Assembly: GCF_000612545.2 (NCBI RefSeq)
Contig: NZ_CP097800.1
Location: 1,674,001-1,738,000, forward strand
DNA length: 64,000 nt
Source of the DNA: Streptomyces sp. PCS3-D2
GTDB lineage: Bacteria; Actinomycetota; Actinomycetes; Streptomycetales; Streptomycetaceae
Direction: 5' to 3'
The notes beneath the pieces were generated by a model that saw nothing but the letters and a program-made list of their open reading frames with translations, did no database searches and was not told where the DNA came from. Numbering within the stretch: the stretch's first letter is position 1; each line of letters opens with the position of its first letter. Below are positions 1 through 23,098 of this stretch, piece after piece. The translations under genes were made by a program, and so were the position numbers.

Positions 1-770
1 AGCGTCAGCAGGACCACGGCGGCTCCGAAGGAGCCGAGCGTCACCGGGTCGCGCCAGCCTTCCTGGGAGGCCCGGATGAAGCCGTAGACGAGCGCGACCA
101 TGCCGAGGGTGGACAGCAGCGCGCCGGCGAAGTCGAAGTGGCCGGGGTGGCGTTCGGACTCGCGCAGGACCTTGGAGGCCAGTACGGCGATCACCAGCGC
201 GATGGGGACGTTGACGAAGAGGACCCAGCGCCAGTCGAGCCACTCGACGAGGACACCGCCCGCGAGGAGTCCGATCGCGCCGCCGGCCGCCGAGACGCCG
301 GCGAACACCCCGAACGCCTTGTTGCGGTCGGGTCCTTCGCGGAAGGTGGTGGTGATCAGCGCGAGGGCCGTCGGCGAGGCGATGGCGCCGCCGACGCCCT
401 GGAGGGCGCGTGCGGCCATCAACTGTCCCTCGTTCTGGGCGAGTCCGCCGAGGAGCGAGGCCAGGCCGAAGAGCAGCACGCCGAAGATGAAGACGCGCTT
501 GCGGCCGAGGATGTCGCCGGTGCGTCCGCCGAGGAGGAGCAGGCCGCCGAAGGCGAGGGTGTACGCGTTGACGACCCAGGAGAGGCTTTCGGTCGAGAAG
601 TTCAGCGCGGTCTGGATGTGCGGCAGCGCGATGTTCACGATGGTGATGTCGAGAACCACCATGAGCTGGCAGGACGCGATGACGACCAGGGCGAGTGTGC
701 TGCCGCCTCCCCGGACCGAGCCGTCCTTGCCGTCGGTCCGTCTGCTGCTCGGCGTTGCGTTCGGGTCCAC
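1..770 (-). CDS. MFS drug/solute efflux transporter (DHA2/EmrB-QacA type), partial
   Basis: This is the N-terminal part of a proton-coupled multidrug or solute transporter of the 14-TM DHA2 class; the gene runs off the left edge. Reading leftward from about 690, the translation gives a first membrane helix followed by VVLDITIVNIALP, the signature of TM1 in this family. TM2 (SWVVNAYTLAFGGLLLLGG) and the conserved RTGDILGRKRVF loop (motif A) come next. The GTG at 770 is chosen as the start because a GGGAGG lies directly upstream and no other start fits before TM1; the spacing is short, so the start is tentative. The gene is divergent from the S9 peptidase gene and shares its control region, including a regulon operator at 826-837. 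It may therefore belong to the hydroxyproline regulon, but its substrate cannot be read from the sequence. Confidence 0.85.
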   Translation of the reverse strand, partial: MDPNATPSSRRTDGKDGSVRGGGSTLALVVIASCQLMVVLDITIVNIALPHIQTALNFSTESLSWVVNAYTLAFGGLLLLGGRTGDILGRKRVFIFGVLLFGLASLLGGLAQNEGQLMAARALQGVGGAIASPTALALITTTFREGPDRNKAFGVFAGVSAAGGAIGLLAGGVLVEWLDWRWVLFVNVPIALVIAVLASKVLRESERHPGHFDFAGALLSTLGMVALVYGFIRASQEGWRDPVTLGSFGAAVVLLT

Positions 771-825
771 CCTCCCGACGCTAAGCCCGCACCTCTGGGG
801 CCACCACTCGAACGGCCTAGTGGTA

Positions 826-837
826 GTGACATTTCAC
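826..837 (+). promoter_or_regulatory. Regulon operator copy 1 (GTGACATTTCAC)
   Basis: This 12-bp imperfect palindrome matches the GTGAMATWKYAC motif found at six control regions in the first 22 kb. It lies between the divergent MFS (start 770) and S9 peptidase (start 854) genes, 16 bp before the peptidase start codon. A partly overlapping second half (GTGACATGTGAA on the minus strand, 833-844) makes the region a longer palindrome. The likely binding protein is the GntR/FCD regulator encoded at 11266-11976; this is inferred from motif distribution only. Confidence 0.6.
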
Positions 838-853
838 ATGTCACACTACGATC

Positions 854-2911: not shown

Positions 2912-2918
2912 CGGTCCT

Positions 2919-3062: not shown

Positions 3063-4280
3063 CTAAGCGGCGAGCTCGACGTCCGTCGGTGTCCGGGATT
3101 CGTAGAAGGTGCCGTCGCGGAGCATGGCGAACAGGACGCTGATGCGTTGGCGGGCGAGGCGGAGGAGGGCCTGGGTGTGGGTTTTGCCGCGTGCTCGTTG
3201 CTTGTCGTAGTAGGCGCGGGAGGCCGGGTCGGCGTTCATGCAGGCGAAGGCGGAGAGAAACATCGCCCGTTTGAGCTGCCGGTTTCCGCCTCGGGGTGCG
3301 TGTTCGCCATGGATCGAGGTCCCGGACTGCTTCGTGGTGGGGGCGAGGCCGGCGTAGGAGGCGAGGTGGGCGGCGGTGGGGAAGCTGGTGCCGTCGCCGA
3401 CGGTGACCAGCAGGACGGCGGCGGTCCTGACGCCGACGCCGGGCATCGACGTCAGGACCGGGGAAAGAGGGTGAGCCTCCAGCAGGGCGTTGATCTGGGC
3501 TTCCATCGCCCGGCGCTGGGTGTGGACAGCGGCCAGCGAGGCGGCCAGGGAGGGGATGACGATGTCGAGGGTGCCGGTCCCGGGAACGACGACGGTCTGC
3601 TCGTCGAGCGCGTTGAAGACGTCGTCGATCAGCCTGGTGGCCATGCGCGGGGCCTTCGGGCGGATCAGCTCGACGAGTCTGCGGCGTCCGGCCTTGCGCA
3701 GGGCGGCTGGGGATCCGTAGCGCTCCAGCAGCCAGGTCACGGCCTGGTGGTCCAGGCGCGGGCCCAGGACGCGTTCCAGGCTGGGGTGGAACTGGGTGAG
3801 CAGGCCCCGTATCCGGTTGGAGGTGCGGGTGGCCTCGGCGGCCAGGTCCTGGTCGAAGCCGACGAGCACGGTCAGCTCGGCGGTGATCTGGTCGGTCAGC
3901 TCCAGCGAGCGCAGGGTGTGCGGCATCGTCCGGGCGGCGTCCGCGATGACGGCGGCGTCCTTGGCGTCGGTCTTGGCCTCGCCCGGGTAGAGGTCGGCGA
4001 TCCGGCGCATCGCCAGTCCGGGCAGGTAGGCGACCTGGCAGCCCGCGTCGCGGGCGACGGTCAGTGGCAGGGCGCCGATGGAGGCGGGCTGGTCCACGAT
4101 CACCAGCACGGTGCCGAACTTCGCGGTCAGCTTGTCGAAGACGGCCCGCAGCTTGGGCTCGCTGTTGGGCAGCTGCTTGTCGAAGACCTTCTTCCCGCCC
4201 GGGGTGAGCCCATGACCGTGATGGCTGCTCTTGCCGACGTCCAGGCCCAGGAACACGCCCACGTCTTCGATCTCGAACAT
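3063..4280 (-). CDS. IS110-family transposase (DEDD recombinase)
   Basis: This 405-aa protein has an N-terminal RuvC-like DEDD domain (LGLDVGKSS near residue 13, VIVDQPAS near 65, TDAKDAAVIADAAR near 105). The C-terminal Tnp_IS110/Transposase_20 domain contains SMPGVGVRTA and SYAGLAPTTKQSGTS; the serine preceding PGVG is the position of the catalytic serine in this family. It catalyses cut-and-paste or circle-mediated transposition, which in related elements is guided by a bridge RNA encoded by the element. The ATG at 4280 follows AAGGGG. An upstream in-frame ATG at 4382 would add a 34-aa extension with no family similarity. The gene looks intact, with no frameshift. Confidence 0.93.
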   Translation of the reverse strand: MFEIEDVGVFLGLDVGKSSHHGHGLTPGGKKVFDKQLPNSEPKLRAVFDKLTAKFGTVLVIVDQPASIGALPLTVARDAGCQVAYLPGLAMRRIADLYPGEAKTDAKDAAVIADAARTMPHTLRSLELTDQITAELTVLVGFDQDLAAEATRTSNRIRGLLTQFHPSLERVLGPRLDHQAVTWLLERYGSPAALRKAGRRRLVELIRPKAPRMATRLIDDVFNALDEQTVVVPGTGTLDIVIPSLAASLAAVHTQRRAMEAQINALLEAHPLSPVLTSMPGVGVRTAAVLLVTVGDGTSFPTAAHLASYAGLAPTTKQSGTSIHGEHAPRGGNRQLKRAMFLSAFACMNADPASRAYYDKQRARGKTHTQALLRLARQRISVLFAMLRDGTFYESRTPTDVELAA

Positions 4281-4550
4281 CGTGCCCCTTCCCAGGGGGT
4301 GTTGACGGTGCCGGCCTCGGCTCGGGTGTCGTGCTCGCGCATCCACGTTATGCAGACCTGCCGCCCGCGAACTGTCCAGCATTGCGCCGGACCGGACGGT
4401 GGCCGGACCTCTGATCAGCGTCTCCGACGAACACCCCCGGACCCGGTGACACCACCCCCCAGGTCATGCCTTCGACAGGGGGCAACAGTCATGCCGGGCC
4501 CGGAGGCCAGCGGCCCCATTGCGGAACCGCAGAAAACATAACGGGGCGAT
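4281..4550 (-). ncRNA. Candidate bridge-RNA region of the IS110 element
   Basis: About 270 bp upstream of the transposase start shows no coding signal on either strand. In IS110-group elements this position (left end, 5' of the recombinase) encodes the structured bridge RNA that pairs with target and donor DNA. The call rests on position and family knowledge alone; I did not derive the loops or the core dinucleotide. Confidence 0.3.
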
Positions 4551-4589: not shown

Positions 4590-5654
4590 TCAGTCACCCG
4601 GGAAGTGGCACGCCACCTCTCGCGAGGCGGCAGGACGCAGCAACGGGCGCTCCGTCCGGCAGATCTCCTGAGCCTTGGGGCAACGCGGGTGGAAGGTGCA
4701 GCCCGGAGGGGGAGCGGCCGGGCTCGGCGGATCGCCGAGCAGCACGATCCGCTCCCGTCGCCGCTCCGCCGCCGGGTCGGGCAGCGGCACGGCGGACAAC
4801 AGCGCCCGGGTGTAGGGGTGCTGGGGGGTCTCGTAGAGGGACGCCTTGTCCCCGATCTCGACGATCCGGCCGAGGTACATGACGGCGACCCGGTCGCTGA
4901 CCCGCTTGACCACCGACAGGTCGTGCGCGATGAACACGTAGGCCAGGCCCAGTTCGGCGCGCAGGCGCTCCATCAGGTTGACGATCTGCGCCTGGACGGA
5001 GACGTCGAGCGCGGAGACCGGTTCGTCGGCGACGATCAGCCGGGGGCTGGTCGCCAGCGAGCGGGCGATGCCGATGCGCTGGGCCTGACCGCCGGAGAAC
5101 TCGTGCGGGTAGCGGTCGATGTGCTCGGGGATCAGCCCGACGAGTTCCATCAGGTCGGCGGCGCGGCGCCGGGCGTCACCCGCGCTCCAGCCCTGCACCA
5201 GCAGTGGTTCGGAGATGATCCGGGCCACGGTCTGCCGGGGGTTCAGCGAGGAGTGCGGATCCTGGAAGACCATCTGGATGTTCTTGCGCAGCGGGCGCAG
5301 GGAGCCCTGTGAGAGGCGGCTGATGTCCTCGCCCTCGAAGACGATCCGGCCCGAGGTGGGCTCCAGCAGCCGCACGAGCATCCGCCCGGTGGTGGACTTC
5401 CCACAGCCCGACTCCCCCACCAGGCCCAGGGTCCGACCGGCCGCCAGGTCGAAGGAGACCCCGTCGACGGCGCGCACGGGCGCCCCCCGGCGCCCGGTCG
5501 CGGACCGCCGGCCGGGAAAGGTCATGGTGAGGTCCCGTACGGACAGCAGTGGTGCGCCCGTCGGGCCGCTCGCCCCGGTCGTGGTACCCGTCGTGGTACC
5601 GGTCGTGGTACCGGTCGTGGCGTCCATCGTGCTGCCGTTCGCGGTGCCGGTCAT
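4590..5654 (-). CDS. Oligopeptide ABC transporter ATP-binding protein (OppF type)
   Basis: This 354-aa ATPase powers peptide import at the inner face of the membrane. It shows Walker A (GESGCGKST), signature FSGGQAQRIGIARSLA, Walker B (RLIVADEPVSALD) and the C-terminal oligo_HPY region with GCTFHPRCPKAQEIC, typical of OppD/OppF pairs, whose clustered cysteines often bind an Fe-S cluster. The first ~35 residues are a Thr/Gly-rich extension encoded partly by three 12-bp repeats, and its true start may lie further in. Its start overlaps the stop of the OppD gene by 4 nt. It is the last gene of the importer operon that begins at 10356 under regulon operator copy 2. Confidence 0.93.
   Translation of the reverse strand: MTGTANGSTMDATTGTTTGTTTGTTTGASGPTGAPLLSVRDLTMTFPGRRSATGRRGAPVRAVDGVSFDLAAGRTLGLVGESGCGKSTTGRMLVRLLEPTSGRIVFEGEDISRLSQGSLRPLRKNIQMVFQDPHSSLNPRQTVARIISEPLLVQGWSAGDARRRAADLMELVGLIPEHIDRYPHEFSGGQAQRIGIARSLATSPRLIVADEPVSALDVSVQAQIVNLMERLRAELGLAYVFIAHDLSVVKRVSDRVAVMYLGRIVEIGDKASLYETPQHPYTRALLSAVPLPDPAAERRRERIVLLGDPPSPAAPPPGCTFHPRCPKAQEICRTERPLLRPAASREVACHFPGD
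5581..5616. repeat. Three tandem 12-bp repeats in the oppF-like 5' end
   Basis: Three adjacent copies of GTGGTACCSGTC (5581-5592, 5593-5604, 5605-5616) encode a Thr/Gly repeat in the N-terminal extension of the OppF-type ATPase, ahead of the conserved ABC domain. Copy number is likely to vary between strains. Confidence 0.8.
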
Positions 5655-6655
5655 CGGGCCGCCTCCTGTGCTGGTGCGGCGGGGGCCCCGGCGAAGTGGC
5701 AGGCCACGGTCCGTCCGGGCCCGTCCCCGTACGCAGCCGGATCCGGCCGCTCGCCGGTGCAGCGTTCGGCCGCCCGGGGGCAGCGCGGCGCGAAGGCGCA
5801 GCCGGGCGCGGGTGCGAGGAGGGACGGCGGGGACCCGGGGATGAAGGGGAGCGGTTCGTCGTCGGCGGTGTCGAGGCGGGGCAGCGAGTCGAGCAGCCCC
5901 CGGGTGTAGGGGTGGGCGGGATCGGTGAAGAGCGCCTCGACGGGGGCCTGTTCGACGGCGCGTCCGCCGTACATGACCAGGACCTCGTGGGCGACGCGGG
6001 CGACGACGCCCAGGTCGTGGGTGATCATCACGACGCCGAGTCCGCGCTCCTGCTGGAGCCTCGCGATCAGTTCGAGGATCTGCGCCTGGACGGTGACGTC
6101 CAGGGCTGTGGTCGGCTCGTCGGCGATCAACAGGTCGGGTTCGCAGGCCAGGGCCATGGCGATCATCGCGCGCTGGCGCATGCCGCCGGAGAACTGGTGC
6201 GGGTACTCCCCCGCCCGGCGCGCCGGTTCGGGGATGCCGACCTCGCCGAGCATGTCGACGGCTCGTCTGCGCGCGGCGGCCCGTCCAGCCTTGAAGTGCA
6301 CCCGGAAGTGTTCGGCGATCTGCTCGCCGACGGTGTAATAGGGGTGCAGGCTGGAGAGCGGGTCCTGGAAGATCATGGCCATCCGGCGGCCGCGCACGGT
6401 GCCGAGCTCGCGGTCGCTCAGGCCGATCAGCGGCCGTCCGGCGAGCGTGACGGAGCCGCCGACCTCGACGGAGCCGCGGTGCAGGCCCATGACGGCGAGC
6501 GAGGTGACGGACTTGCCGGAGCCGGATTCGCCGACGATGCCGAGGGTGCGTCCGGCCTCGACGGTGAAGCCGACGGAGTCGACGGCCCGGACGGTCCCCC
6601 GAGGGGTGGTGAAGGTGACGCGCAGGTCGCGTACTTCGAGGAGCGGATCGGCCAT
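5651..6655 (-). CDS. Oligopeptide ABC transporter ATP-binding protein (OppD type)
   Basis: This 334-aa ATPase is the partner of the OppF-type subunit. It has Walker A (GESGSGKSV), signature [16 protein letters not shown], Walker B ([13 protein letters not shown]), the switch histidine (MITHDLGV) and a C-terminal oligo_HPY segment with [15 protein letters not shown]. The ATG at 6655 shares its A with the TGA of the upstream permease gene (TGATG), and the stop overlaps the next gene by 4 nt, so the subunits are translationally coupled. The open frame extends further upstream, but the family's conserved start ([14 protein letters not shown]) supports 6655. Confidence 0.94.
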
Positions 6656-7641
6656 CAGTACCTCACTCTCGGGTCGATGACGGCGTACAGGAGGTCGACG
6701 ACGAGGTTGGCGACGACGATGAAGAAGGCCGCCAGCAGGGTGACGCCGAGGACCACGGGCTGGTCGGAGCTGACGAGGGCGCCGTAGAAGAGCCGTCCGA
6801 TGCCGGGGAGTCCGAAGATCGACTCGGTGATCACGGCGCCGGCGAGCAGCCCGCCGAGGTCGATGCCGAAGAGGGTCAGGATCGGCGTCATCCCGGAGCG
6901 CAGGCCGTGTTTGACGACGACCGTCCGCTCGGGCAGGCCCTTGGCGCGGGCGGTGCGGATGTAGGGCTCGGCCATCGCCTCGATCATCGAGCCCCGGCTC
7001 TGGCGCGCGTACATGGCGGCGTAGAGCAGCGCGAGCGCGGTCCAGGGCAGGAGCAGGTTCGAGGCCCATCCGAGCGGGTTGTCGGTGAAGGGTCGGTAGG
7101 CGGGGTAGGGCAGCAGTCCGGCGATGCGGATGACGCCGTGGATGAGCATCACCGCGGTGAAGTACACGGGCAGCGAGGCGGCGGCCACGGCACCGACCAT
7201 CAGGGCCTTGTCGGTGGCGGTGTCCTTGCGCAGGGCGGCGGTGACCCCGGCACCGAGGCCGAGAAGGAGCCACAGCACGGCGGCGCCGAGGGCCAGGGAG
7301 GCGGAGACGGGGAGCCGGTCCATGAGCAGGTCCCACACGGGCAGGGAGCTCTCGTACGAGTAGCCCAGGCAGGGGAAGTCGCAGGTGACGGCGTACTGGC
7401 CGGTGCCGAGGGTGCGGCCGGTGAAGATGCCGGTCAGGAAGTCGGCGAACTGCTTGACCAGGGGCTGGTCGAGGCCCAGGTGGACGCGTACGTCGGCCAG
7501 CCGCTCGGCGCTGCAGGTCTTGCCGCAGGCGGCCGCGGCCGGGTCCGCGGGCAGGACGTAGAAGATGAGGAAGGTGACGGCCGTGATGGCGAGGAGCACT
7601 CCGGCGAGGGCGAGCAGCCGGCGGGCGAGGTAGAGGATCAC
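6655..7641 (-). CDS. Oligopeptide ABC transporter permease (OppB type)
   Basis: This 328-aa integral membrane permease of the BPD_transp_1 family begins with a membrane helix (LARRLLALAGVLLAITAV) followed by a periplasm-facing loop and five further helices. It ends in the conserved VDLLYAVIDPRVRY tail. The EAA-type coupling loop follows the segment with RTARAKGLPERTVVVKHG. A four-cysteine stretch lies in the first external loop (AACGKTCSAERL and later CDFPCLGY), suggesting one or two external disulfides. The GTG start at 7641 overlaps the stop of the second permease gene by 4 nt. Confidence 0.93.
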   Translation of the reverse strand: MILYLARRLLALAGVLLAITAVTFLIFYVLPADPAAAACGKTCSAERLADVRVHLGLDQPLVKQFADFLTGIFTGRTLGTGQYAVTCDFPCLGYSYESSLPVWDLLMDRLPVSASLALGAAVLWLLLGLGAGVTAALRKDTATDKALMVGAVAAASLPVYFTAVMLIHGVIRIAGLLPYPAYRPFTDNPLGWASNLLLPWTALALLYAAMYARQSRGSMIEAMAEPYIRTARAKGLPERTVVVKHGLRSGMTPILTLFGIDLGGLLAGAVITESIFGLPGIGRLFYGALVSSDQPVVLGVTLLAAFFIVVANLVVDLLYAVIDPRVRY

Positions 7642-8591
7642 GTGCGCCCTCCCCTCGGGTCGAGGATGTCGCGCAGCGCGTCGCCGAGCAGGGTGAAGGC
7701 GAGCACGGCGAGGAAGAGGAAGACGCTGGGGATGACGAAGTACATGGGGTCGGTCTCGTAGTAGGCGACGGACTCGGCGATCATCTGGCCCCAGGAGGGG
7801 GTGGGCGGGCGGACGCCGACGCCGAGATAGCTGAGAGCCGCCTCGGTGCTGATCATCCCGGGGATGAGCAGGGTGGTGTAGGCGATGACGGGGCCCGCCA
7901 CGCCCGGCAGGACCTCGCGGGTGAGGATGCGCCAGGGGCCGGCGCCGCCGACGCGGGCGGCGTCGACGTACTCGCGGTGTCTGAGGGAGAGGGCCTGGCC
8001 GCGGACCACCCGGGCGATGCCGGGCCAGCCGAAGAGGCCGATGACCACGGTCATGAGGACGAGCCGGTTGACGTCCTTGGCCACGGACAGCATGGCGATC
8101 ATGAAGATCAGGGAGGGGAAGGACATGGTCAGGTCCATGAGCCGGGACAGGGCCGCGTCGGTGCGGCCGCCGAAGTAGCCGGCGGCGATCCCGGCGGCGG
8201 TGCCGGCGAGGACCACGATCGTGGTGGCCGCGAAAGCGATCAGGAGGGAGACCTGCGCGCCGTGGACGACCCGGGCGAACAGGTCGCGGCCGGTGACGGG
8301 TTCCACGCCGAGCCAGTGCTCGGTTCCGATCCCCCCGAAGGCGCCGATCGGCTGGCCCCCGAGATAGGGGTCGACGGCATTCTTGTCGAACTCGTGCGGG
8401 GACCAGCCGCCGAGCGCGCCCAGCCAGGGCGCGGTGGCGGCCATCAGGACGAAGAGGCCGACGATGGCGAGGCTGACGCGGACGGCGGGGCGGCGGCGGA
8501 GCTCCTGGCGGGCGAGCTGCCAGGGACTGCTGCCGGGCGCCGCCGCGGGCCGGTCCGGGGCGGCGTCGCGGGCCGCTGCTGTGGTGGTCAT
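7638..8591 (-). CDS. Oligopeptide ABC transporter permease (OppC type)
   Basis: This 317-aa second permease has the OppC-type N-terminal helix (VSLAIVGLFVLMAATAPWLG), an external loop containing GTEHWLGVEPVTGRDLF typical of dipeptide/oligopeptide permeases, and the EAA loop around YVDAARVGGAGPWRILTREVLPG. It ends DALRDILDPRGGRT. It lies 22 nt downstream of the binding-protein gene and is coupled by a 4-nt overlap to the OppB gene. With the OppB protein it forms the channel of the peptide importer. Confidence 0.93.
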   Translation of the reverse strand: MTTTAAARDAAPDRPAAAPGSSPWQLARQELRRRPAVRVSLAIVGLFVLMAATAPWLGALGGWSPHEFDKNAVDPYLGGQPIGAFGGIGTEHWLGVEPVTGRDLFARVVHGAQVSLLIAFAATTIVVLAGTAAGIAAGYFGGRTDAALSRLMDLTMSFPSLIFMIAMLSVAKDVNRLVLMTVVIGLFGWPGIARVVRGQALSLRHREYVDAARVGGAGPWRILTREVLPGVAGPVIAYTTLLIPGMISTEAALSYLGVGVRPPTPSWGQMIAESVAYYETDPMYFVIPSVFLFLAVLAFTLLGDALRDILDPRGGRT

Positions 8592-8613
8592 GGGGTCGGG
8601 GGCTCCGGATTCC

Positions 8614-10356: not shown

Positions 10357-10403
10357 GGGTCACTCCAGGGAAGGGCACGCTCAGCGGCTCTACGATGTGA
10401 CCG

Positions 10404-10435
10404 GTAACATAGTAATGTGAAATTGCACTGACAAG
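10404..10435 (-). promoter_or_regulatory. Promoter and regulon operator copy 2 of the peptide importer
   Basis: On the minus strand TTGTCA (10434-10429) and TATGTT (10411-10406) are separated by exactly 17 bp, a textbook vegetative promoter. The operator GTGAAATTGCAC (10417-10428) fills the spacer, so a bound protein would block RNA polymerase. The whole 32-bp block is identical to 21644-21675, in front of the collagenase gene. Confidence 0.75.
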
Positions 10436-10707
10436 GGGTTGGGTCTGCCGTTATGCAGCCGTGTCCGAGCTCCGCCAGTCCGTTGCGGCCGATCGGCCCG
10501 CGTGCGCCTGCCGTTGGTGAGGGTGGCGGCCGACGTCAGGTCGTCCGGGCCGTGGCGGGCTGCCGGGGTCGCGCGCTGCGCGAAGAGGCGACGGATGGGT
10601 GGGACCACCGGTCGGGTCGGTGGTCGGTGGGGCCGGGGGGCGGCGGCCCGGGCGCCCCCCGGCCCGCCCCCTCGACGCCGGCGCCGTGGACTTCGCGGCC
10701 ACCGTAC

Positions 10708-10944: not shown

Positions 10945-11265
10945 GTGGGGGCAAACGCTTCGGCCGGAGCCCGGTCACGGGCGGGGAGAGGGACTTTGCC
11001 GCCCGATGACCGACCCGGCCGGATGCGCCGGGCGGCTCCGGTCGGCGCCGGGGAGCGGCCCTTCTCGCGCATCCGCCCGGTCGGGTCGACCGTCCCGGCG
11101 GCGTACCTCGTGAACATCGCAGCCCGCTCGGACCGGTCGGCCGTGGCGGCCTCCGCGGGCCGCCGCGGCCGATCCGGTCGAGGGCCGACCGCCCCGATGA
11201 CCGGCTGCCGCCTTTCGGACCTCGAAGCGGCCGTCGGCCTCGCGGCACGTCACCGGATCACGGCG
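10945..11265. other. Intergenic stretch, no gene recognised
   Basis: About 320 bp between the small hypothetical gene and the end of gntR. Long frames cross it on both strands, but they are Arg/Pro/Gly-rich shadows with no recognisable domain. I see no clear terminator or operator copy here. Confidence 0.4.
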
Positions 11266-15034: not shown

Positions 15035-15949
15035 TTAGTTCAGTCCCTCGGCGAGGGCCTTCTCGGTGGCGGCGCGGACGGCGGCCTCGGTGTCGCCGGT
15101 GAGCGGGAAGCGCGGCGGGCGGGTGGCGCCGCCGGGGCGGCCCGCCAGGTCCATGGAGAGCTTGATGGCCTGGACGAACTCGGTCTTGGAGTCCCAGCGC
15201 AGCAGGGAGTGCAGGGACTTGTAGAGCGGCAGGGCGGTCTCCAGGTCTCCGGCGACGGCGGCCCGGTAGAGGGTGGCGCAGGAGCGCGGCAGGGCGTTGG
15301 GGTAGCCGGCGATCCAGCCGACCGCGCCCGCGAGCGCGAGTTCGAGGAGGACGTCGTCGGCGCCGATGAGCAGGTCGAGGCCCGGGGCGAGTTCCGCGAT
15401 CTCGTAGGCACGGCGCACGTCACCGCTGAACTCCTTGACGGCGACGATGGATCCGTCGGCGTGCAGCCGCGCGAGCAGGGAGGGGACCAGGTCCACCTTG
15501 GTGTCGATGGGGTTGTTGTACGCGACCACGGGCAGCCCGGCGCGGGCGACCTCGGCGTAGTGGGCGCGTACGGTCTCCTCGTCCGCGCGGAAGGCGTTGG
15601 GCGGCAGCAGGAGCACGGAGCCGGCGCCGGCCTCGGCGGCCTGCTCGGCCCAGCGGCGGGCCTCGGCGCTGCCGTAGGCGGCGACGCCGGGCATCACGCG
15701 GGCGCCGTCGCCGGCGGCCTCGACGGCGGTACGCACGACGCGCGCCCGCTCCTCGTCGGTGAGGGTCTGGTACTCCCCGAGGGAGCCGTTGGGGACCACG
15801 CCGTCGCAGCCTCCCTCGATCAGCCAGGCCACGTGCTCGGCGTAGGCGTCGTAGTCGACGGTGAGGTCCTCGCGCAGGGGGAGCGCGGTGGCGACCATGA
15901 TTCCGTGCCAGGGACGGGTGCGGGGCGCGGGGGTGTGCGCGTGGGTCAT
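15035..15949 (-). CDS. DHDPS/NAL-family deaminase (probable pyrroline-4-hydroxy-2-carboxylate deaminase)
   Basis: This 304-aa class I aldolase-fold enzyme has the Schiff-base lysine at 172 (VAVKEFSGD) and tyrosine 144 (VVAYNNP). The substrate loop reads NGSLGEY instead of the G-T-T-G-E of true dihydrodipicolinate synthase, so it is not a lysine-biosynthesis enzyme. In hydroxyproline clusters such proteins deaminate and dehydrate 1-pyrroline-4-hydroxy-2-carboxylate to alpha-ketoglutarate semialdehyde plus ammonia. The ATG at 15949 follows GGGAG. It is the first gene of the operon reading 15949 to 12047 and is preceded by operator copy 4, 22 bp upstream, overlapping a -10-like TAAAAT. Confidence 0.85.
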   Translation of the reverse strand: MTHAHTPAPRTRPWHGIMVATALPLREDLTVDYDAYAEHVAWLIEGGCDGVVPNGSLGEYQTLTDEERARVVRTAVEAAGDGARVMPGVAAYGSAEARRWAEQAAEAGAGSVLLLPPNAFRADEETVRAHYAEVARAGLPVVAYNNPIDTKVDLVPSLLARLHADGSIVAVKEFSGDVRRAYEIAELAPGLDLLIGADDVLLELALAGAVGWIAGYPNALPRSCATLYRAAVAGDLETALPLYKSLHSLLRWDSKTEFVQAIKLSMDLAGRPGGATRPPRFPLTGDTEAAVRAATEKALAEGLN

Positions 15950-15971: not shown

Positions 15972-15983
15972 GTGACATTTTAC
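15972..15983 (+). promoter_or_regulatory. Regulon operator copy 4 (GTGACATTTTAC)
   Basis: It lies in the 75-bp gap between the dehydrogenase operon (ending 16025) and the deaminase gene (start 15949), upstream of the latter. On the minus strand it covers TAAAAT, a good -10 hexamer, so binding should block the promoter of the deaminase-epimerase-racemase-reductase operon. Confidence 0.65.
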
Positions 15984-16024: not shown

Positions 16025-17611
16025 TCAGCGGTCGGTGGCGGGAAGTCCGGCGAGGTCGCGCAGCGGGACCGGACAGGAGAGGGGACGGCGGTCCGCGGCG
16101 GGTTCCCCTCCGGCCAGGGCGGCGACGGCCGGACCGCACATGCGGCCCTGGCACCAACCCATGCCGGCCCGGGTGAGGAGTTTGACCGTACGGGCGTCCC
16201 GCGCCCCGAGGTCACCGGCCGCCTCGCGGATCCGGCCGGCCGGGACCTCCTCGCAGCGGCACACCACGGCATCGTCCCGGAGCCAGCCGGTCCAGCCCGC
16301 GCCCGGCCGGTGGGCCGCGGCCATCGCGTCGGCGAAGGCGCGCAGCCGGTCGCGGCGGCGGGCGAGGCAGGTCAGGCGGGCCCCGTCGCCCGGGGCCGGC
16401 CGCCCCGGGCGCAGCGCCGCCGCGACGGAGTGCGCGGCCAGCTCGCCTTCGGCCAGGGCCAGCTGGGCACCGCCGATGCCGCCGGTCTCCCCCGCGGACC
16501 AGATGCCGGGGACCGAGGTGCGCTGCCCGGCGTCGACCTCCAGGGCGACGGTGCCGTCGAGGCCGGTCCGGGTGGCGCACCCGAGTCCGGTGGCGAGTTC
16601 GAGCTGGGGCACGAGCCCGTGGCCGACGGCGAGCGCGTCACAGGGGATCCGGCGGGCGGTGCCGGGCAGCGGACGCCAGTCGCGGTCGAGTCGGGACACG
16701 GTGACGGCCTCGATCCGGCCGGTGCCGTGGGCCTGCGTGACGGCGTGCCGGGTCAGCAGCCGGACGTGGCCACGGGCCAGGGCTCCCCCGTAGGCGGCGG
16801 CCTCGACGAGCTTGCCGGGATTGCGCAGCAGCGCGGGCACCTGACCCGCGTACGCGGTGTAGGCGGCGGCCTCCACCACGGCGGGCACGGCGGCTCCGGC
16901 GGCGGCGAGGGACCCGGCCACCGCGAGCAGGAGCGGACCACTGCCGGCGACCACCACGCGCCGGCCCGGCAGCACCAGTCCGCCCTTGAGCATGGCCTGC
17001 GCCCCACCGGCCCCGACCACTCCGGGCAGCGTCCAGCCGGGGAAGGGCAGTTGGCGCTCGTAGGCGCCGGTGGCGACGAGCACGGCGCGGGCCGCGACCG
17101 CCGCGGCCCGCTCGTCGGGGGCGTGGCCGGCGACGGCGTGCAGGGTCCAGCCGCCCTCTCGCGGTGCCACCGTCCACACGTGATGGAGCGGCAGGTAGAC
17201 GATCCGGCCGGCCGACTCGTGGGCGCGCAGGGCGGCCGCGCGGGCCGTGAACTCGGCCCAGCCGTGGTGCAGGGCCTCGGGGCGGGCGGCACCGAGGCCC
17301 GGTGCGGGGTGGCGGTAGTACTGCCCGCCGGGGGCGTCGCCCGCGTCGAGGAGGGCCACTCGGAGTCCGAGCCCGGCGGCGGTGACGGCCGCGGCCAGTC
17401 CGGCCGGCCCGGCCCCGACCACGGCCAGGTCGACCGGCTCGGCACCGCCCGGCGCGCCGGACCCGGCAGACCCGGCGGACGCGGCGGACGCAGACGGCTG
17501 TGCGGACGGCTCCGGGGGCCGGGACGGACCGGCGGACCCGGACGGCTGTGCGGATCCGGGCCGGCCCCCGGCGCGGGGCGGCTCGGCGGGGTCAGACGGC
17601 GAGGTCGGCAT
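16025..17611 (-). CDS. FAD/[2Fe-2S] oxidoreductase, alpha subunit of a D-hydroxyproline dehydrogenase-type complex
   Basis: This 528-aa flavoprotein has an N-terminal Rossmann FAD site (VDLAVVGAGPAGLAAAV), a second dinucleotide site (RRVVVAGSGPLLLAVAG) and a C-terminal BFD-like four-cysteine cluster (VVCRCEEV with later GWCQGRMCGP) for a [2Fe-2S] centre. It matches the large subunit of heteromeric hydroxyproline, opine or hydrogen-cyanide-synthase-type dehydrogenases. With the two adjacent genes it should oxidise cis-4-hydroxy-D-proline to 1-pyrroline-4-hydroxy-2-carboxylate, passing electrons toward the respiratory chain. The ATG at 17611 has AGGAGG 9 nt upstream and overlaps the ferredoxin-like gene by 20 nt. 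A ~60-residue Ser/Pro/Gly/Ala-rich N-terminal extension before the FAD site is unusual; the true start could be further in. Confidence 0.86.
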   Translation of the reverse strand: MPTSPSDPAEPPRAGGRPGSAQPSGSAGPSRPPEPSAQPSASAASAGSAGSGAPGGAEPVDLAVVGAGPAGLAAAVTAAGLGLRVALLDAGDAPGGQYYRHPAPGLGAARPEALHHGWAEFTARAAALRAHESAGRIVYLPLHHVWTVAPREGGWTLHAVAGHAPDERAAAVAARAVLVATGAYERQLPFPGWTLPGVVGAGGAQAMLKGGLVLPGRRVVVAGSGPLLLAVAGSLAAAGAAVPAVVEAAAYTAYAGQVPALLRNPGKLVEAAAYGGALARGHVRLLTRHAVTQAHGTGRIEAVTVSRLDRDWRPLPGTARRIPCDALAVGHGLVPQLELATGLGCATRTGLDGTVALEVDAGQRTSVPGIWSAGETGGIGGAQLALAEGELAAHSVAAALRPGRPAPGDGARLTCLARRRDRLRAFADAMAAAHRPGAGWTGWLRDDAVVCRCEEVPAGRIREAAGDLGARDARTVKLLTRAGMGWCQGRMCGPAVAALAGGEPAADRRPLSCPVPLRDLAGLPATDR

Positions 17612-17903
17612 GGCCGGTTCCCTCCTGGGTGGTGACGGCGTCGCCGGGCCGGGCGGGGACCAGGCAGGCGCGCTGGTTCGGGCGGCCGTTGACGGTGACG
17701 AGGCAGTCGTAGCAGCTGCCGATCCCACAGAAGGCGCCGCGCGGCGCGCCGCCCTCCCGGGTGGTGCGCCAGGCGAGGATCCCGGCGGCCCAGAGCACCG
17801 CGGCGACGCTCTGGCCGGGCAGGGCGGGCAGTTCACGGCCGTCGAAGGTGATCTCGTACGCGGCCGCCGGGCTGCCGCCGACCAGCGAGCGGGGGCTGCG
17901 CAT
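17592..17903 (-). CDS. (2Fe-2S)-binding gamma subunit of the dehydrogenase complex
   Basis: This 103-aa Fer2_4-type protein has cysteines at 59, 64, 67 and 80 (FCGIGSCYDC and RAC), the pattern of a plant-type [2Fe-2S] ferredoxin domain. These small proteins are the electron-transfer subunit of heteromeric D-hydroxyproline or sarcosine-oxidase-like dehydrogenases. Its ATG shares one base with the stop of the upstream FAD subunit gene (TGATG) and its end overlaps the alpha subunit gene, so the three proteins are made together. Confidence 0.88.
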   Translation of the reverse strand: MRSPRSLVGGSPAAAYEITFDGRELPALPGQSVAAVLWAAGILAWRTTREGGAPRGAFCGIGSCYDCLVTVNGRPNQRACLVPARPGDAVTTQEGTGHADLAV

Positions 17904-19078
17904 CAGGAGTGCTCCTCGGGGGTGTCGGCGGGGATCGGGCCGGCGCCGAAGCGGTCCGGGCGGAAGGGGTGGGCGGGCAGCGGGGGTTCGGCCCCCGTCA
18001 GCGCGGCGGCGATCATCAGCCCGGTGGCCGGGGCCAGGCCGATGCCGGCGCCCTCGTGGCCGCAGGCGTGCAGCAGTCCGGGGCGGCGGGGGTCCGGGCC
18101 GATCGCCGGGAGGTGGTCGGGCAGGTAGGGGCGGAAGCCGTGGTAGGTGCGCAGGACCCGCACGCCGGACAGGACGGGGAAGAGCTCCGCGGCCTGGGAG
18201 GCCAGCCGGCGCAGCGCCTCGGTCGACAGGCTCCGGTCGAAGCCGACCCGCTCACGGGTGGCGCCGATCAGGACCGGTCCCGAGGGGGTGCCCTCCACCA
18301 CGGCCGAGGACTGCAGGGCGGCGGAGCCGCTGGCGACGTCCGCGATGTAGTCGGCCGCGTAGACCTTGTGCCGGACCACTCGCGGCAGCGGTTCGGTCAC
18401 CAGGACGAAGCCGCGGCGCGGGAGGACGGGCAGGTCGGTGCCGGCCAGCGAGGCGATGTGCCCGCCCCAGGTGCCGGCCGCGTTCACCACGGCGGGGGCC
18501 CGGAGTTCGCGGCGGGGGGTGCGGACGCCTCGCACGACGCCGCGGTCCAGCAGGACCTCCGTCACCTCCTCGCCGAGGTACGCCGCGGCGCCCGAGGCGG
18601 CCAGCAGCCGGGCCGCGGCCTGCGCCGGCTGGACCTGCGCGTCCTGCGGGTAGTGGAATCCCCCTGCCAGGTCCGGGGCCAGGTGGGGCTCCAGGTCGTG
18701 CAGGGCGTGCGCGGGGACCTCGACCGCGTCGACCCCGGCCGCGCGCTGGCCCTCGGCGAAGCTCCGCAGGGCCTTCACGGTGGCCTCGTCCGGGGCGACG
18801 ACGAGCCCGCCCTTGGGCTCGTACTCGACCTCCCGCGGGAGGACCTCGGCCAGTTGCGTCCACAACCGCGCGGAGAGCAGGGCGAGGTCGAGTTCGGGGC
18901 CCGCCTCCTTGTCGGAGACGAGCAGGTTGCCTTCGCCGGCGCCGGTGGTGCCGCCCGCGACGGGACCGCGGTCGACGACGGCCACGGAGAGTCCGGCGCG
19001 GGCCGCGTAGTAGGCGCAGGCCGCTCCGACGACGCCGGCACCGATGATCACGACGTCCAGAGGATGTCTCTTGAGCAC
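17903..19078 (-). CDS. FAD-dependent oxidoreductase (DadA/DAO type), beta subunit of D-hydroxyproline dehydrogenase
   Basis: This 391-aa protein of the DAO family has the FAD-binding GAGVVGAACAYYAARAG at its N-terminus and the C-terminal THGFRPYLPD-like stretch (YHGFRPYLPDHLPAIGPDP) with LHACGHEGAGIGLAPATG. It is the substrate-oxidising subunit, acting on a D-amino or D-imino acid. The GTG at 19078 has no Shine-Dalgarno sequence. A -10-like CATATT sits exactly 6 nt before it, so the transcript is probably leaderless, and operator copy 5 overlaps that -10. First gene of the three-gene dehydrogenase operon. Confidence 0.88.
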   Translation of the reverse strand: MLKRHPLDVVIIGAGVVGAACAYYAARAGLSVAVVDRGPVAGGTTGAGEGNLLVSDKEAGPELDLALLSARLWTQLAEVLPREVEYEPKGGLVVAPDEATVKALRSFAEGQRAAGVDAVEVPAHALHDLEPHLAPDLAGGFHYPQDAQVQPAQAAARLLAASGAAAYLGEEVTEVLLDRGVVRGVRTPRRELRAPAVVNAAGTWGGHIASLAGTDLPVLPRRGFVLVTEPLPRVVRHKVYAADYIADVASGSAALQSSAVVEGTPSGPVLIGATRERVGFDRSLSTEALRRLASQAAELFPVLSGVRVLRTYHGFRPYLPDHLPAIGPDPRRPGLLHACGHEGAGIGLAPATGLMIAAALTGAEPPLPAHPFRPDRFGAGPIPADTPEEHS

Positions 19079-19082
19079 GACA

Positions 19083-19094
19083 GTAATATGTCAC
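19083..19094 (-). promoter_or_regulatory. Regulon operator copy 5 (GTGACATATTAC) at a leaderless promoter
   Basis: The minus-strand motif ends 5 bp before the GTG start codon of the dehydrogenase beta subunit and contains most of the presumed -10 hexamer CATATT. Binding here would directly block transcription initiation. Confidence 0.65.
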
Positions 19095-19150: not shown

Positions 19151-19159
19151 CGGTACCCG

Positions 19160-21544
19160 TCAGCTGCGCAGCGGCCCCTCACAGCTGTAGCTCGACGTCG
19201 CGGCGACCTTGTTGCTCCAGATCTCCGGCGGACCGAAGGAGCAGTTCATGTCGGCGAGGTTGTTGGAGGCGGCGCCCGCCCGGTCGAGGATGAAGTAGTC
19301 GACCGTCTCCGACATGTCCTTGAAGTTCTGGTCGTCGCTGCGCCAGTTCTTCAGGTTCGCGGTGATCCGGCCCGTGCAGGTGAAGCGGCGCTTGCCCGGG
19401 TCGCCGTTCTCCACGCAGTCCGGGGTGTTGTAGGTGGCCGCGGCGAAGGACGACTTCACCGAGGCGAGCGCCGAGTCGCGCAGCTGATCGTTGGGGGTGA
19501 AGGAGGTGTTCGGCACGAAGAGCTGATCGACCTTGGCGATCTGGGCGTCCAGGAAGCGGTCGTAGTCGCGCTGGAGGTAGGTGTCGGCCCCCATCCGGTG
19601 GCGCCAGGCGTCGTACGCCGCGACGTCGTCGGCGCGCAGGTGGGTGTACATCTCGCGCAACAGCGAGGGCTTCTCGGTCCACAGGAACTCGAAGAAGGTG
19701 CCGGCGTAGCTGTAGAAGCGGAAGCCGTCGCCGGCGTAGGTGGCGTTCAGCAGCTGCTCGACGGTCATGCGCGGGCCGCCGCCGGCCGTGTCGCTGATGA
19801 TGCTCTTCACCAGGGACTTGCGGACGGCGATGCCGTTGTCGCGGGTGGCGCCGTCGAAGAACTCGGCCGTGCCCTCGTCCATGGCGGTCGTGCGGTCGCT
19901 CTCGTACCAGGGGCCCTGGCCGAAGAAGCCGGGGACGGCGAAGCGGCCGTTGAGGTAGTGCGTGTACTCGTGACGGAAGAGCTCCTCAAGGGTGAGGGAG
20001 GAGTCCTGCGGGACGCGGCGCTGGTAGGTGTAGAAGGTGGCGCCGTTCTCGATGTAGATGCCGCCGTTGTTGGTGTCGTAGCCGGTCAGGATCGGGTGGT
20101 AGTTCACGTAGTCGGCGCGGGAGCCGTAGAGCACGATGTTCAGGGTGGCGTTGGGGTCGCCCGCGAGCGGCTGGTCGGTCCCCAGGACGCGGTGGTACTG
20201 GGCCTTGACCTGCTTGCTGGCGTAGTAGAGCTGGTCGACGGTGGCCCGGTCGAGGCCGGTGCGGACCTTGATGGCGCCGTTGTCGTAGGTGTAGGTGTAG
20301 GGGAACAGCTGCTTCTCGATGTCCTCCCGGCACACCCCGTACGGCGTGCAGGCCTCGTAGAAGTTGAGCCAGGAGACGACCTTGGCCCACGGCTCGCTGC
20401 CGTCGCCGAAGCCGGCCTTCAGGGAGCCGAGCATCGCGCCGAGGTCGGCGACGATCGGGTCGCGCAGGCCCTCGACCTGGCCGAAGCGGGCGTACTCGCT
20501 GAGCGCGTCGCGCACCACCCAGGCGTTGGCCGTGCCCTTGAGGTGCGTGTAGCCGGAGAAGGCCTTGAAGGCGGCACGGTAGGCGGGGTCGGCGGCCACG
20601 GCCGCGTGGAAGGCGGTGTCCTGGTTGCCCGGGTAGACGCCGAGGTAGTTGGTGGAGAGCGCGGCGAGCACGGCGCCCGCCCACGCGGGGTCCAGGTGGG
20701 TGGCCGGGTGGGCCGGGTCCATGGTGGCCAGGACCTTTCGCACCAGGCCGAGCTGGTGCTGGCGCAGGCCGGGGCCGGCGGCATAGAGGGCCTCGCGCAG
20801 GGTGCGGGCGTTGGCGGGAGTGACGTCGAAGGTCCGCGCCGCGCCTCCGAAGGCGTCGATGGCCTCGCGTATCGCGGCGACCGTCGGGGCGTCGGTGATG
20901 TCGATCTCATCGCGCGAGAAGTCGTGGTAGGCGACGGCGTGCAGGTACGTGAACATCTCCTCCAGGTGGGAGGAGTTGCGGCCGTCGTGGGCGGCGGCCA
21001 GGGCGGATATCCGGCGGGACACGGCCTGGACGTGCGCGTCCGACATGACCGGGGCCAGGCGGGCGTCCCAGGTCCAGATCAGTCCGCGCAGGCAGCCGTC
21101 GGCCAGGACGGCCTGGTCGGCGAGGAAGTCGGCGAACTGCTCGGGCGTGAGGTTCGTGATCCCGTCGAGGGTGCAGGGGACGCCTGCGGCGACGCTCTTC
21201 GCGGTGGGTGACAACGCGGCCGCCTTGCCCCGCTTCTCCAGCTCCTGGACCGACCCGCCGGCGGGGGCCGCGCCGGGCACCTGGCCGGAGAGGTTCAGCC
21301 CGCCCGGGGCCGGGGCGGGGGCGGGGGCGTTGTCCTTGGCCTCGGCGAAGCGGTCGACCTCGTCGAAGGGGTTCCCCGTGGGGCCGGGGGCCGCGGCGGC
21401 GGTTGCGGCGGCCTGAGCGCCCGTGAAGGCGGCGGGGGCCGCGGACTCGGCGGCCTGCGTGGTGCCCTGCGCCGCGGTGGCGAGGAGGGTCACCGCAATG
21501 GCGGAGGCGAGGAGGGAAGAGCGCACAGCTCTGTGCTTGAGCAC
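19160..21544 (-). CDS. Secreted M9-family collagenase (zinc metallopeptidase)
   Basis: This 794-aa secreted protease has a Sec signal peptide (RAVRSSLLASAIAVTLLATA, then AAQGTTQAAES), a Pro/Ala-rich linker, an M9 N-terminal activator-like domain (about 130-380) and a gluzincin catalytic domain. That domain has HEYTH at about residue 525 and the third zinc ligand in AMDEGTAEFFDGAT. It should cleave native or denatured collagen outside the cell. The C-terminal ~110 residues contain four cysteines (PDCVE, FTCTG, NCSFG, YSCEG). No PKD or typical collagen-binding domain is visible, so it is shorter than clostridial ColG/ColH. The GTG at 21544 follows AGGAG; the open frame extends upstream across the promoter but has no coding character there. 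It is transcribed from a promoter overlapping operator copy 6. Confidence 0.93.
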   Translation of the reverse strand: MLKHRAVRSSLLASAIAVTLLATAAQGTTQAAESAAPAAFTGAQAAATAAAAPGPTGNPFDEVDRFAEAKDNAPAPAPAPGGLNLSGQVPGAAPAGGSVQELEKRGKAAALSPTAKSVAAGVPCTLDGITNLTPEQFADFLADQAVLADGCLRGLIWTWDARLAPVMSDAHVQAVSRRISALAAAHDGRNSSHLEEMFTYLHAVAYHDFSRDEIDITDAPTVAAIREAIDAFGGAARTFDVTPANARTLREALYAAGPGLRQHQLGLVRKVLATMDPAHPATHLDPAWAGAVLAALSTNYLGVYPGNQDTAFHAAVAADPAYRAAFKAFSGYTHLKGTANAWVVRDALSEYARFGQVEGLRDPIVADLGAMLGSLKAGFGDGSEPWAKVVSWLNFYEACTPYGVCREDIEKQLFPYTYTYDNGAIKVRTGLDRATVDQLYYASKQVKAQYHRVLGTDQPLAGDPNATLNIVLYGSRADYVNYHPILTGYDTNNGGIYIENGATFYTYQRRVPQDSSLTLEELFRHEYTHYLNGRFAVPGFFGQGPWYESDRTTAMDEGTAEFFDGATRDNGIAVRKSLVKSIISDTAGGGPRMTVEQLLNATYAGDGFRFYSYAGTFFEFLWTEKPSLLREMYTHLRADDVAAYDAWRHRMGADTYLQRDYDRFLDAQIAKVDQLFVPNTSFTPNDQLRDSALASVKSSFAAATYNTPDCVENGDPGKRRFTCTGRITANLKNWRSDDQNFKDMSETVDYFILDRAGAASNNLADMNCSFGPPEIWSNKVAATSSYSCEGPLRS

Positions 21545-21643
21545 CGAGAACTCCTGTTCGGAGAGGGTGAGGTGGGGGGTGGTGCGTGAACTGCCCTGCG
21601 TCACGCGGCGTTTGACGGGGATTAACGTGCCGCGGTGTGAGCT

Positions 21644-21675
21644 GTAACATAGTAATGTGAAATTGCACTGACAAG
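21644..21675 (-). promoter_or_regulatory. Promoter and regulon operator copy 6 between collagenase and aminopeptidase P
   Basis: This 32-bp block is identical to 10404-10435. On the minus strand TTGTCA (21674-21669) and TATGTT (21651-21646) flank a 17-bp spacer containing GTGAAATTGCAC (21657-21668). It drives the collagenase; the divergent aminopeptidase gene starts 44 bp to the right, and TAATGT (21653-21658) could be its -10, so one bound operator could control both. Confidence 0.78.
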
Positions 21676-21718
21676 ACCTATGCGCCCACCAGTTCGCGTC
21701 TTCCATGAAGGAGCCCCC

Positions 21719-23098
21719 GTGACCGAATCCCCCGCCCACCTCAACACGGGCAGCCACGACCGTCCGGTGTCACCGGAGTTGTCCCGGTTCATGGCGGGCG
21801 GCTGGGCACCCTCCCCGCTCCCTCCCTCCGCGCGGGCCGCGGCACACGACGTCACCCCGGCCCGCCGGGCGCGGCTTTCGGCCCGCTTCCCGGGCGAGCG
21901 GCTGATCGTCCCCGCGGGCGAGCTGACGGTCCGCTCCAACGACTGCGACCACCGCTTCCGCCCGCACAGCGCGTACGCCTGGCTGACCGGCCTCACCGGG
22001 GAGGACCAGGCGGGGCACGTACTGGTCATGGAGCCGTCGGGTCCGCACGCGCACGAGGCCGTGCTCCACCTGCGACCCCGCTCGCCGCGAGCCGACGGGG
22101 ACGGGGAGTTCTACCGGGACCGCCGGTACGGGGAGTTCTGGGTGGGGCGCCGTCCGGACCTCGCCGAGGCGGAGCGCCTGACCGGGATCCGCTGCACACG
22201 CCTCGATCCGCTCGGCCCGCCGGAAGGCCGCAACGCGGCCACCGACCCGGAACTCGCCGCGGCACTGTCGGAATTGCGCCTGGTCAAGGACGCTTGGGAG
22301 GTAGAGCAGCTGCAACTGGCCGTCGACCACACGACGACGGGATTCGAGGACGTCGTACGGTCCCTGCCGCAGGCCCTGGCGCACCCGCGCGGGGAACGAT
22401 GGATCGAGGGGGTCTTCGGCCTGCGCGCCCGGGCCGAGGGCAACGGCACCGGCTACGAGACGATCGCCGCGTCGGGCGCCCACGCGTGCACCCTGCACTG
22501 GATCCGCAACGACGGCCGGCTGGACGGGAGCGAACTGCTCCTCCTGGACGCGGGCGTGGAGACGGACACCCTCTACACCGCGGACATCACCCGCACCCTC
22601 CCGCTGTCGGGCCGCTTCTCACCCGTCCAGCGGCAGGTCTACGAACTGGTGCTGGCCGCCCAGGAGGCGGGCATCGCGGCACTGCGCCCCGGGGCGCGCT
22701 TCGGGGACTTCCACCGCGCCGGGATGCGGGTGATCGCCGAAGGCCTGGCCGAGTGGGGCGTCCTGAAGAACGCCGAGGGCGACCTGCACCGGCGGTACAC
22801 CCTGTGCAGCAGCGGCCACATGCTGGGGCTCGACGTGCACGACTGCGCGAAGGCCCGGGCCGAGACGTACCTGGACGGAGTCCTGGAGGAGGGCCAGGTC
22901 CTGACGGTGGAGCCGGGCCTGTACCTCCAGCCCGACGACGAGACCCTTCCCGCACCGCTGCGGGGCATCGGCGTCCGCATCGAGGACGACCTGGTGATCA
23001 CGGCGGACGGCGCCCGGCTGATGTCGGGCGCACTGCCGCGCACGGTCGCCGGCATCGAGGAGTGGATGTCCGGCCTCCTGGAGGACGGCCACGCCTGA
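21719..23098 (+). CDS. M24 Xaa-Pro aminopeptidase (aminopeptidase P family)
   Basis: This 459-aa cytoplasmic metallopeptidase removes N-terminal residues preceding proline or hydroxyproline. An AMP_N domain (residues about 40-180, with VPAGELTVRSNDCDHRFRPH) is followed by the pita-bread catalytic domain with its dinuclear metal ligands: Asp in LLDAGVETDTLY, Asp in TADITRTLP, His in GLDVHDC, Glu in VEPGLYL and Glu in GVRIEDD. The GTG at 21719 has an excellent GAAGGAG 5 nt upstream, which excludes the in-frame ATG at 21680. It is divergent from the collagenase gene and shares its operator, consistent with trimming imported collagen peptides such as X-Pro-Hyp. Confidence 0.93.
   Translation: MTESPAHLNTGSHDRPVSPELSRFMAGGWAPSPLPPSARAAAHDVTPARRARLSARFPGERLIVPAGELTVRSNDCDHRFRPHSAYAWLTGLTGEDQAGHVLVMEPSGPHAHEAVLHLRPRSPRADGDGEFYRDRRYGEFWVGRRPDLAEAERLTGIRCTRLDPLGPPEGRNAATDPELAAALSELRLVKDAWEVEQLQLAVDHTTTGFEDVVRSLPQALAHPRGERWIEGVFGLRARAEGNGTGYETIAASGAHACTLHWIRNDGRLDGSELLLLDAGVETDTLYTADITRTLPLSGRFSPVQRQVYELVLAAQEAGIAALRPGARFGDFHRAGMRVIAEGLAEWGVLKNAEGDLHRRYTLCSSGHMLGLDVHDCAKARAETYLDGVLEEGQVLTVEPGLYLQPDDETLPAPLRGIGVRIEDDLVITADGARLMSGALPRTVAGIEEWMSGLLEDGHA

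Follow-up and report, generated by a model that had tools for sequence, protein, structure and literature searches.

A probable HypR-type collagen and hydroxyproline regulon assembled in one 22-kb Streptomyces locus

The window analysed here is a stretch of 64,000 nucleotides from Streptomyces sp. PCS3-D2 (contig NZ_CP097800.1, positions 1,674,001 to 1,738,000). Its positions 826-23098, about 22 kb of a 7.63-Mb genome, hold a collagen/hydroxyproline cluster, in which genes for a predicted secreted collagenase, two peptidases, a peptide importer and hydroxyproline (Hyp) catabolism lie together with a hypR-like repressor gene. A sequence-only reading of this DNA had proposed a programme for feeding on collagen and its hydroxyproline, with one operator motif in common, and that proposal is well supported by the operator conservation and the recurrent co-location described below.

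Genes of the cluster

Gene finding combined a codon-position script with Pfam and NCBIfam scans. From left to right, the plus-strand S9 peptidase gene is followed by genes for an IS110 transposase, OppF, OppD, two permeases, an SBP_bac_5 binding protein, a GntR/FCD regulator and an OCD reductase, and then by those for two proline-racemase-family enzymes (PR2 and PR1), a DHDPS-family deaminase, three dehydrogenase subunits and the M9 collagenase, all on the minus strand; the M24 peptidase gene is divergent, on the plus strand. Pyr2C and Pyr4H2C stand for pyrroline-2-carboxylate and pyrroline-4-hydroxy-2-carboxylate.

854-2911, plus: S9 peptidase, DPP4-like, without evident signal peptide (Peptidase_S9, DPPIV_N)
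3063-4382, minus: IS110-family transposase, between importer and S9 gene (DEDD_Tnp_IS110, Transposase_20)
4590-5654, minus: importer ATPase, OppF-like (ABC_tran, oligo_HPY)
5651-6655, minus: importer ATPase, OppD-like (ABC_tran, oligo_HPY)
6655-7641, minus: importer permease (BPD_transp_1)
7638-8591, minus: importer permease (BPD_transp_1, OppC_N)
8614-10356, minus: peptide-binding lipoprotein (SBP_bac_5; lipobox by eye)
11266-11976, minus: hypR-like repressor (GntR and FCD domains)
12047-12997, minus: OCD-family reductase, probably a Pyr2C reductase (OCD_Mu_crystall)
12994-14013, minus: PR2, proline racemase family, Cys102/Cys268 (Pro_racemase)
14010-15014, minus: PR1, probable 4-hydroxyproline 2-epimerase, Cys91/Cys255 (Pro_racemase, 430 bits)
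15035-15949, minus: DHDPS-family protein, probable Pyr4H2C deaminase, Lys172 (DHDPS)
16025-17611, minus: D-Hyp dehydrogenase subunit with FAD/NAD and BFD-like 2Fe-2S domain (Pyr_redox_2, Fer2_BFD; start ATG 17611 by eye)
17592-17903, minus: D-Hyp dehydrogenase 2Fe-2S subunit (Fer2_4)
17903-19078, minus: D-Hyp dehydrogenase FAD subunit (DAO)
19160-21544, minus: predicted secreted M9 collagenase (Peptidase_M9, Peptidase_M9_N; start and signal peptide by eye)
21719-23098, plus: M24 Xaa-Pro aminopeptidase, without evident signal peptide (Peptidase_M24, AMP_N; scanned as 21680-23098; start GTG 21719 picked by eye from the ribosome-binding site)

Pfam scans and a motif check recovered every gene that the sequence-only reading had named, and the catalytic residues it had given were correct (HEYTH with a later Glu, Lys172 and a Cys/Cys pair). 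It had overlooked the second Pro_racemase gene at 12994-14013, the transposase at 3063-4382, an operator ahead of the deaminase gene, and an MFS gene that diverges from S9.

The M9 product carries HEYTH and, further on, a Glu within DEGTAEFF, in agreement with the HEXXH + Glu pattern, and its PDB matches include ColT, ColH and ColG; it is predicted to be a collagenase that would cleave collagen or gelatin. The S9 peptidase has the catalytic motif GWSYGG with Ser555, and both it and the M24 enzyme are probably cytoplasmic. The peptide importer indeed consists of five genes, encoding an SBP_bac_5 binding protein, two permeases and two ATPases with oligo_HPY; the best PDB match of the binding protein is the oligopeptide-binding protein of the clavulanate cluster, followed by peptide-binding proteins. 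For PR1 the best NCBIfam model is 4-hydroxyproline epimerase (356.6 bits, slightly under the cut-off of 376), and the protein shows the features of such epimerases, namely the Cys/Cys pair, the Pro_racemase family and DAAO (D-amino acid oxidase family) and DHDPS partners. The OCD reductase scores best with the model for Pyr2C/Pip2C (piperideine-2-carboxylate) reductase, at 211 bits, below the cut-off of 322.

The transposase is an insertion that lies outside the function of the cluster; related S9-bearing loci have no transposase match between the importer and S9. An MFS transporter gene (start at window 770; 13208-14770 in locus L003) lies on the other side of the S9 operator, in divergent orientation to S9, and such a gene adjoins S9 in 10 of 11 S9 loci. 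Between the binding-protein gene and hypR, about 0.9 kb (window 10357-11265) are without a Pfam-matched gene. Pfam gave no match for the open reading frames 8588-10378 and 10451-11248, the former of which overlaps the binding-protein gene in a different frame.

Operators and a shared promoter-operator

In S. coelicolor, HypR (SCO6294) was reported in 2019 to repress a gene for an M9 collagenase as well as the Hyp operon (PMC6608401). According to the accessible part of that report, on which all our statements about S. coelicolor are based, L-Hyp induces the Hyp operon, HypR binding was shown, and growth on L-Hyp is lost without the epimerase. The window shows corresponding features: a GntR/FCD gene lies beside the Hyp operon with TACAATGTCAC, the HypR footprint sequence of S. 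coelicolor, in its own promoter, and operators precede the Hyp operon and the M9 gene. The shared operator of the sequence-only reading was likewise recovered, as GTGA[AC]AT[AT][GT][CT]AC matches six sites in window 1-24000 with 0 mismatches, each directly before a cluster gene.

826-837, plus: operator GTGACATTTCAC before S9, between S9 and the divergent MFS gene (exact 12-mer)
10404-10435, minus: 32-bp promoter-operator reading into the importer operon, identical to 21644-21675
10417-10428, minus: operator before the importer operon, inside the 10404-10435 element (exact 12-mer)
12025-12036, minus: operator GTGACATTGTAC before hypR (with the S. coelicolor HypR site TACAATGTCAC inside it, as reverse complement)
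15972-15983, plus: operator before the deaminase gene, within the catabolic operon (directed towards the gene as reverse complement)
19083-19094, minus: operator GTGACATATTAC before the dehydrogenase operon (exact 12-mer)
21644-21675, minus: 32-bp promoter-operator between M9 and M24, promoter towards M9, identical to 10404-10435
21657-21668, minus: operator between M9 and M24, inside the 21644-21675 element (exact 12-mer)

Operator conservation was counted in upstream regions from the window and from 80 epimerase loci, all in Streptomyces except for one in Streptantibioticus and one in a record titled Actinobacteria. The core GTGAMATNNNAC was present upstream of the dehydrogenase in 69/69 cases, of hypR in 71/80, of the binding protein in 38/39, of M24 in 45/46 and of the deaminase in 41/80. 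PR2, an internal gene that served as a control, had the operator in none of 24 upstream regions even with two mismatches allowed. For S9, a first scan found the core in 1/9 upstream regions, because eight of them fell outside the loci retrieved; when nine S9 loci (window included) were compared, the core ATT[TG]CACATGNCA was seen in all nine and the exact 12-mer only in three.

The two elements at 10404-10435 and 21644-21675 are identical across 32 bases, and their flanks differ on both sides. Read on the minus strand, the element consists of TTGTCA, 17 bases that include the operator, and TATGTT, thus spanning -35 to -10 (boxes assigned by eye). It would therefore be a sigma-70-type promoter, as judged by eye, and since the operator sits in the promoter spacer, a bound repressor would block the polymerase. 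With at most one mismatch, the element was found in 34/39 binding-protein and 32/46 M24 upstream regions, and where a locus has both copies, these are identical in 16/30 cases. A 29-bp version (at most three mismatches) gave 58 copies in 38 of 121 Streptomyces genomes and 0 in the reversed control; an epimerase or M9 gene is no more than 16 kb away from 57 of the 58, and the lone remaining copy is near a contig edge, beside what by eye look like the start of a signal-peptide gene and a gntR-like frame.

Across the whole genome, GTGAMATNNNAC has 25 matches vs 3 in the reversed control. These correspond to 24 places (one site is matched on both strands): the cluster accounts for 6 and 23S rRNA for 8, which leaves 10 elsewhere. 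The rRNA places are those within 23S rRNA or identical in context, and Rfam LSU, run on one stretch, confirms two of the eight. Among the ten others, eight are inside called genes and two between genes. Neither intergenic site (one preceding a VanW-domain and a kinase gene, the other between Uma2 and a mannosyltransferase-like gene) has an apparent collagen link; nor do the intragenic ones, two of which lie at gene ends (at the start of a lysine/ornithine monooxygenase gene, and at a 3' end just before the next gene). The pattern TRCMATGTSAC has five sites beyond that of hypR, one of them also among the GTGAMATNNNAC places and some upstream of ParA-like and SMC-like genes; we did not count these as targets, and take them as evidence neither for nor against.

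Distribution across Streptomyces and competing explanations

Full flanks were available for 68 of the 80 loci, and in 60 of these M9, M24 or the binding protein lies within 10 kb. M9 and M24 occur together in 29/68, all three in 18/68 and none in 8/68, and the modules of the full-length loci come in 23 arrangements differing in order and orientation. Pro_racemase has matches in 101 of the 121 Streptomyces genomes, and M9 in 73. The M9 genes split into a low-scoring type, to which that of the window belongs, and a high-scoring type. An epimerase was found no more than 25 kb away from 22 of the 38 genes of the former type and from 8 of the 54 of the latter. S9 orthologues (at least 79% identity) are present in 11 of the 121 genomes, in 10 of them within 15 kb of an epimerase, and 30 of 33 M24 orthologues have an epimerase or M9 gene at a distance of 25 kb or less.

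The remote M9 genes examined comprised 8 of the 16 far genes of the low-scoring type and 13 of the 44 of the high-scoring type. Allowing for one mismatch, the operator is near the 5' end in 8/8 low-scoring and 9/13 high-scoring genes, and without mismatch in 6/8 and 8/13. A hypR-like gene (64-80% identity) was found in 7 of 20 remote-M9 stretches (L160, L164, L165, L166, L168, L170 and L171), a count not compared with the background frequency of GntR genes; this suggests that the regulator was duplicated or moved along with the collagenase. In other words, the cluster genes are often dispersed, the operator usually travels with them, and the regulator sometimes does. The sequence-only reading had named scattering in related genomes together with loss of the shared operator as the outcome that would speak against it: scattering is indeed often seen, but the operator is usually kept.

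We consider it likely that the locus is a HypR-type collagen and hydroxyproline regulon assembled in one 22-kb stretch. HypR would occupy the operators at six promoter regions and repress them, and hydroxyproline, or a signal derived from it, would relieve the repression; binding, repression and L-Hyp induction are here carried over to the present strain by analogy with S. coelicolor. Collagen or gelatin would be cut by the secreted M9 enzyme, peptides would enter through the binding protein and ABC importer, and the M24 and S9 peptidases would release Pro- and Hyp-containing pieces. Then trans-4-Hyp would be converted to alpha-ketoglutarate semialdehyde (alpha-KGSA) by epimerase, D-Hyp dehydrogenase and deaminase, with PR2 and the OCD reductase serving a side branch, most likely for 3-Hyp. 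The peptide uptake, the roles of M24, S9, PR2 and OCD, and the order of events are what we infer for this strain.

A number of observations weigh against such a regulon. NCBIfam cut-offs were reached by none of the ten cluster proteins scanned, so that the proteins are named from their Pfam domains, motifs and context. With two mismatches allowed, the site was present in only 19 of 45 loci in the -300 to +90 stretch of M9 itself, the start of which is uncertain, and it also appeared in 6 of 22 upstream regions of a neighbouring acyl-CoA dehydrogenase gene used as a control. M9 genes not within 25 kb of an epimerase make up 44/54 of the high-scoring and 16/38 of the low-scoring type, where 10 of the 16 count as far only for being on a different contig. 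The gene kgd is a HypR target in S. coelicolor (PMC6608401), whereas here no HypR-type operator was found upstream of it, the nearest sites having three mismatches. In vitro, binding of the S. coelicolor HypR is unchanged by L-Hyp (PMC6608401). Finally, an alpha-KGSA dehydrogenase was not found by Pfam in the scanned genes of the cluster, and the programme can thus be called self-contained only in part: collagen attack, uptake and Hyp catabolism are clustered, but this enzyme was not found with them.

The 80 loci are, moreover, the closest epimerase matches (83-96% identical) and not a random sample. Since they are mostly related, the neighbourhood might simply be the inherited context of close relatives, the functional unit being limited to hypR and the Hyp operon; neighbours with no evident part in the programme, encoding an acyl-CoA dehydrogenase and an MFS protein, recur too. 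We give this little credence, because the modules occur in so many orders and orientations, M24 accompanies M9 even where both sit away from the Hyp operon, and the 32-bp element is conserved though its flanks differ. Another explanation concerns the food itself, which might really be free hydroxyproline or Hyp-peptides from plant cell-wall glycoproteins or debris, with the collagenase as one protease of several and a general importer that is incidentally co-regulated. Plant and animal tissue are both named as possible sources in the accessible part of PMC6608401, many genomes have an epimerase without M9, and eight full-length loci have none of M9, M24 and binding protein nearby. Nonetheless, remote M9 genes still carry the operator and more than half of the window-type M9 genes are near an epimerase, which makes this explanation unlikely.

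A more specific version of the collagen and hydroxyproline regulon turns on PR2. It would be a one-repressor locus eating both collagen hydroxyprolines, where 4-Hyp is degraded via PR1 and the dehydrogenase, PR2 is a Cys/Cys trans-3-Hyp dehydratase passing Pyr2C to OCD, and the importer and collagenase are synchronised by the cross-species promoter-operator. As a whole we hold this version only tentatively, at distinctly less than an even chance; its 3-Hyp branch via PR2 and OCD is plausible on sequence grounds. The nearest family of PR2 is that of trans-3-Hyp dehydratases (NCBIfam 258 bits vs 191 for proline racemase, the former below its cut-off of 540), the PDB match agrees, and in the 18 full-length PR2 loci examined OCD is always present and adjoins PR2. 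Genes for 4-Hyp and 3-Hyp side by side are known in other organisms (accessible part of PMC4113996). Alternatively, PR2 alone may be a proline or 3-Hyp racemase/epimerase and not a 3-Hyp dehydratase, OCD recycling the Pyr2C that D-Hyp dehydrogenase makes from D-proline. Its catalytic pair is Cys/Cys in 24 of 24 copies (window included), failing the Cys/Thr pattern of dehydratases, and according to the accessible part of PMC4364671 Cys/Cys marks racemases and epimerases and Cys-Thr dehydratases. In addition, PR2 is missing from 5 of 23 full-length loci with OCD. Against its being a racemase or epimerase stand the closer dehydratase family and the constant adjacency to OCD, and we put its chance at a little under even.

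Other genes of the window include a Pnkp/Hen1-type RNA repair pair (34728-38833; a PNKP ligase-phosphatase-kinase protein and a Hen1 methyltransferase), an arginine deiminase (32773-34008) and a two-gene methylmalonyl-CoA mutase (46415-50463). At 58734-63955, a DUF3323/DUF2399 protein adjoins a 1287-aa SbcC-like ATPase, a pair that may resemble a Wadjet-like defence set.

Relation to known systems

The locus has in common with the HypR regulon of S. coelicolor (PMC6608401) the GntR/FCD repressor, the operator sequence, the three-subunit dehydrogenase, the deaminase, the epimerase and a repressor-controlled M9 gene. It differs in that M9 is here inside the cluster, the S. coelicolor collagenase gene SCO5912 lying elsewhere, far from the Hyp operon; the importer, M24 and S9 are not among the HypR targets given in the accessible part of that report. 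The collagen-Hyp link through HypR had thus already been published; what sets the present locus apart is that most of the probable HypR targets lie together. The collagen utilization cluster of about 21 kb in the Colwellia metagenome-assembled genome BB5 (accessible part of PMC7883544) shares M9, peptidases, uptake genes, epimerase and Hyp/Pro catabolism with the present locus. That cluster belongs to a Gammaproteobacterium, relies for uptake on MFS and TonB systems where the present locus has an Opp-type ABC importer, has a PutR-type regulator, and holds prolyl isomerases and a KGSA dehydrogenase, the latter not found in the scanned genes here. The 4HypE/t3HypD pathways of the proline racemase superfamily (accessible part of PMC4113996) likewise involve two adjacent superfamily genes with DAAO, DHDPS and OCD partners, the difference being that t3HypDs are described as Cys/Thr and PR2 is Cys/Cys.

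In the literature within reach, which largely excludes subscription papers, we found no account of a HypR-controlled importer, M24 or S9, or of such clustering in Streptomyces. The importer, M24 and S9 are probably new HypR targets, as their operators suggest. Also new are the conserved promoter-operator, the recurrent co-location in varied orders and the hypR-like genes beside some remote collagenases, and possibly the pairing of a Cys/Cys enzyme with an OCD reductase for 3-hydroxyproline. The HypR regulon would likely be widened in this way from catabolism and collagenase to uptake and peptide cleavage, and the 32-bp promoter-operator provides a sequence tag for locating HypR targets throughout Streptomyces. 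Two questions become testable: which signal HypR responds to during collagen feeding, and whether 3-hydroxyproline can be dehydrated by a proline-racemase-family enzyme with a Cys/Cys pair.

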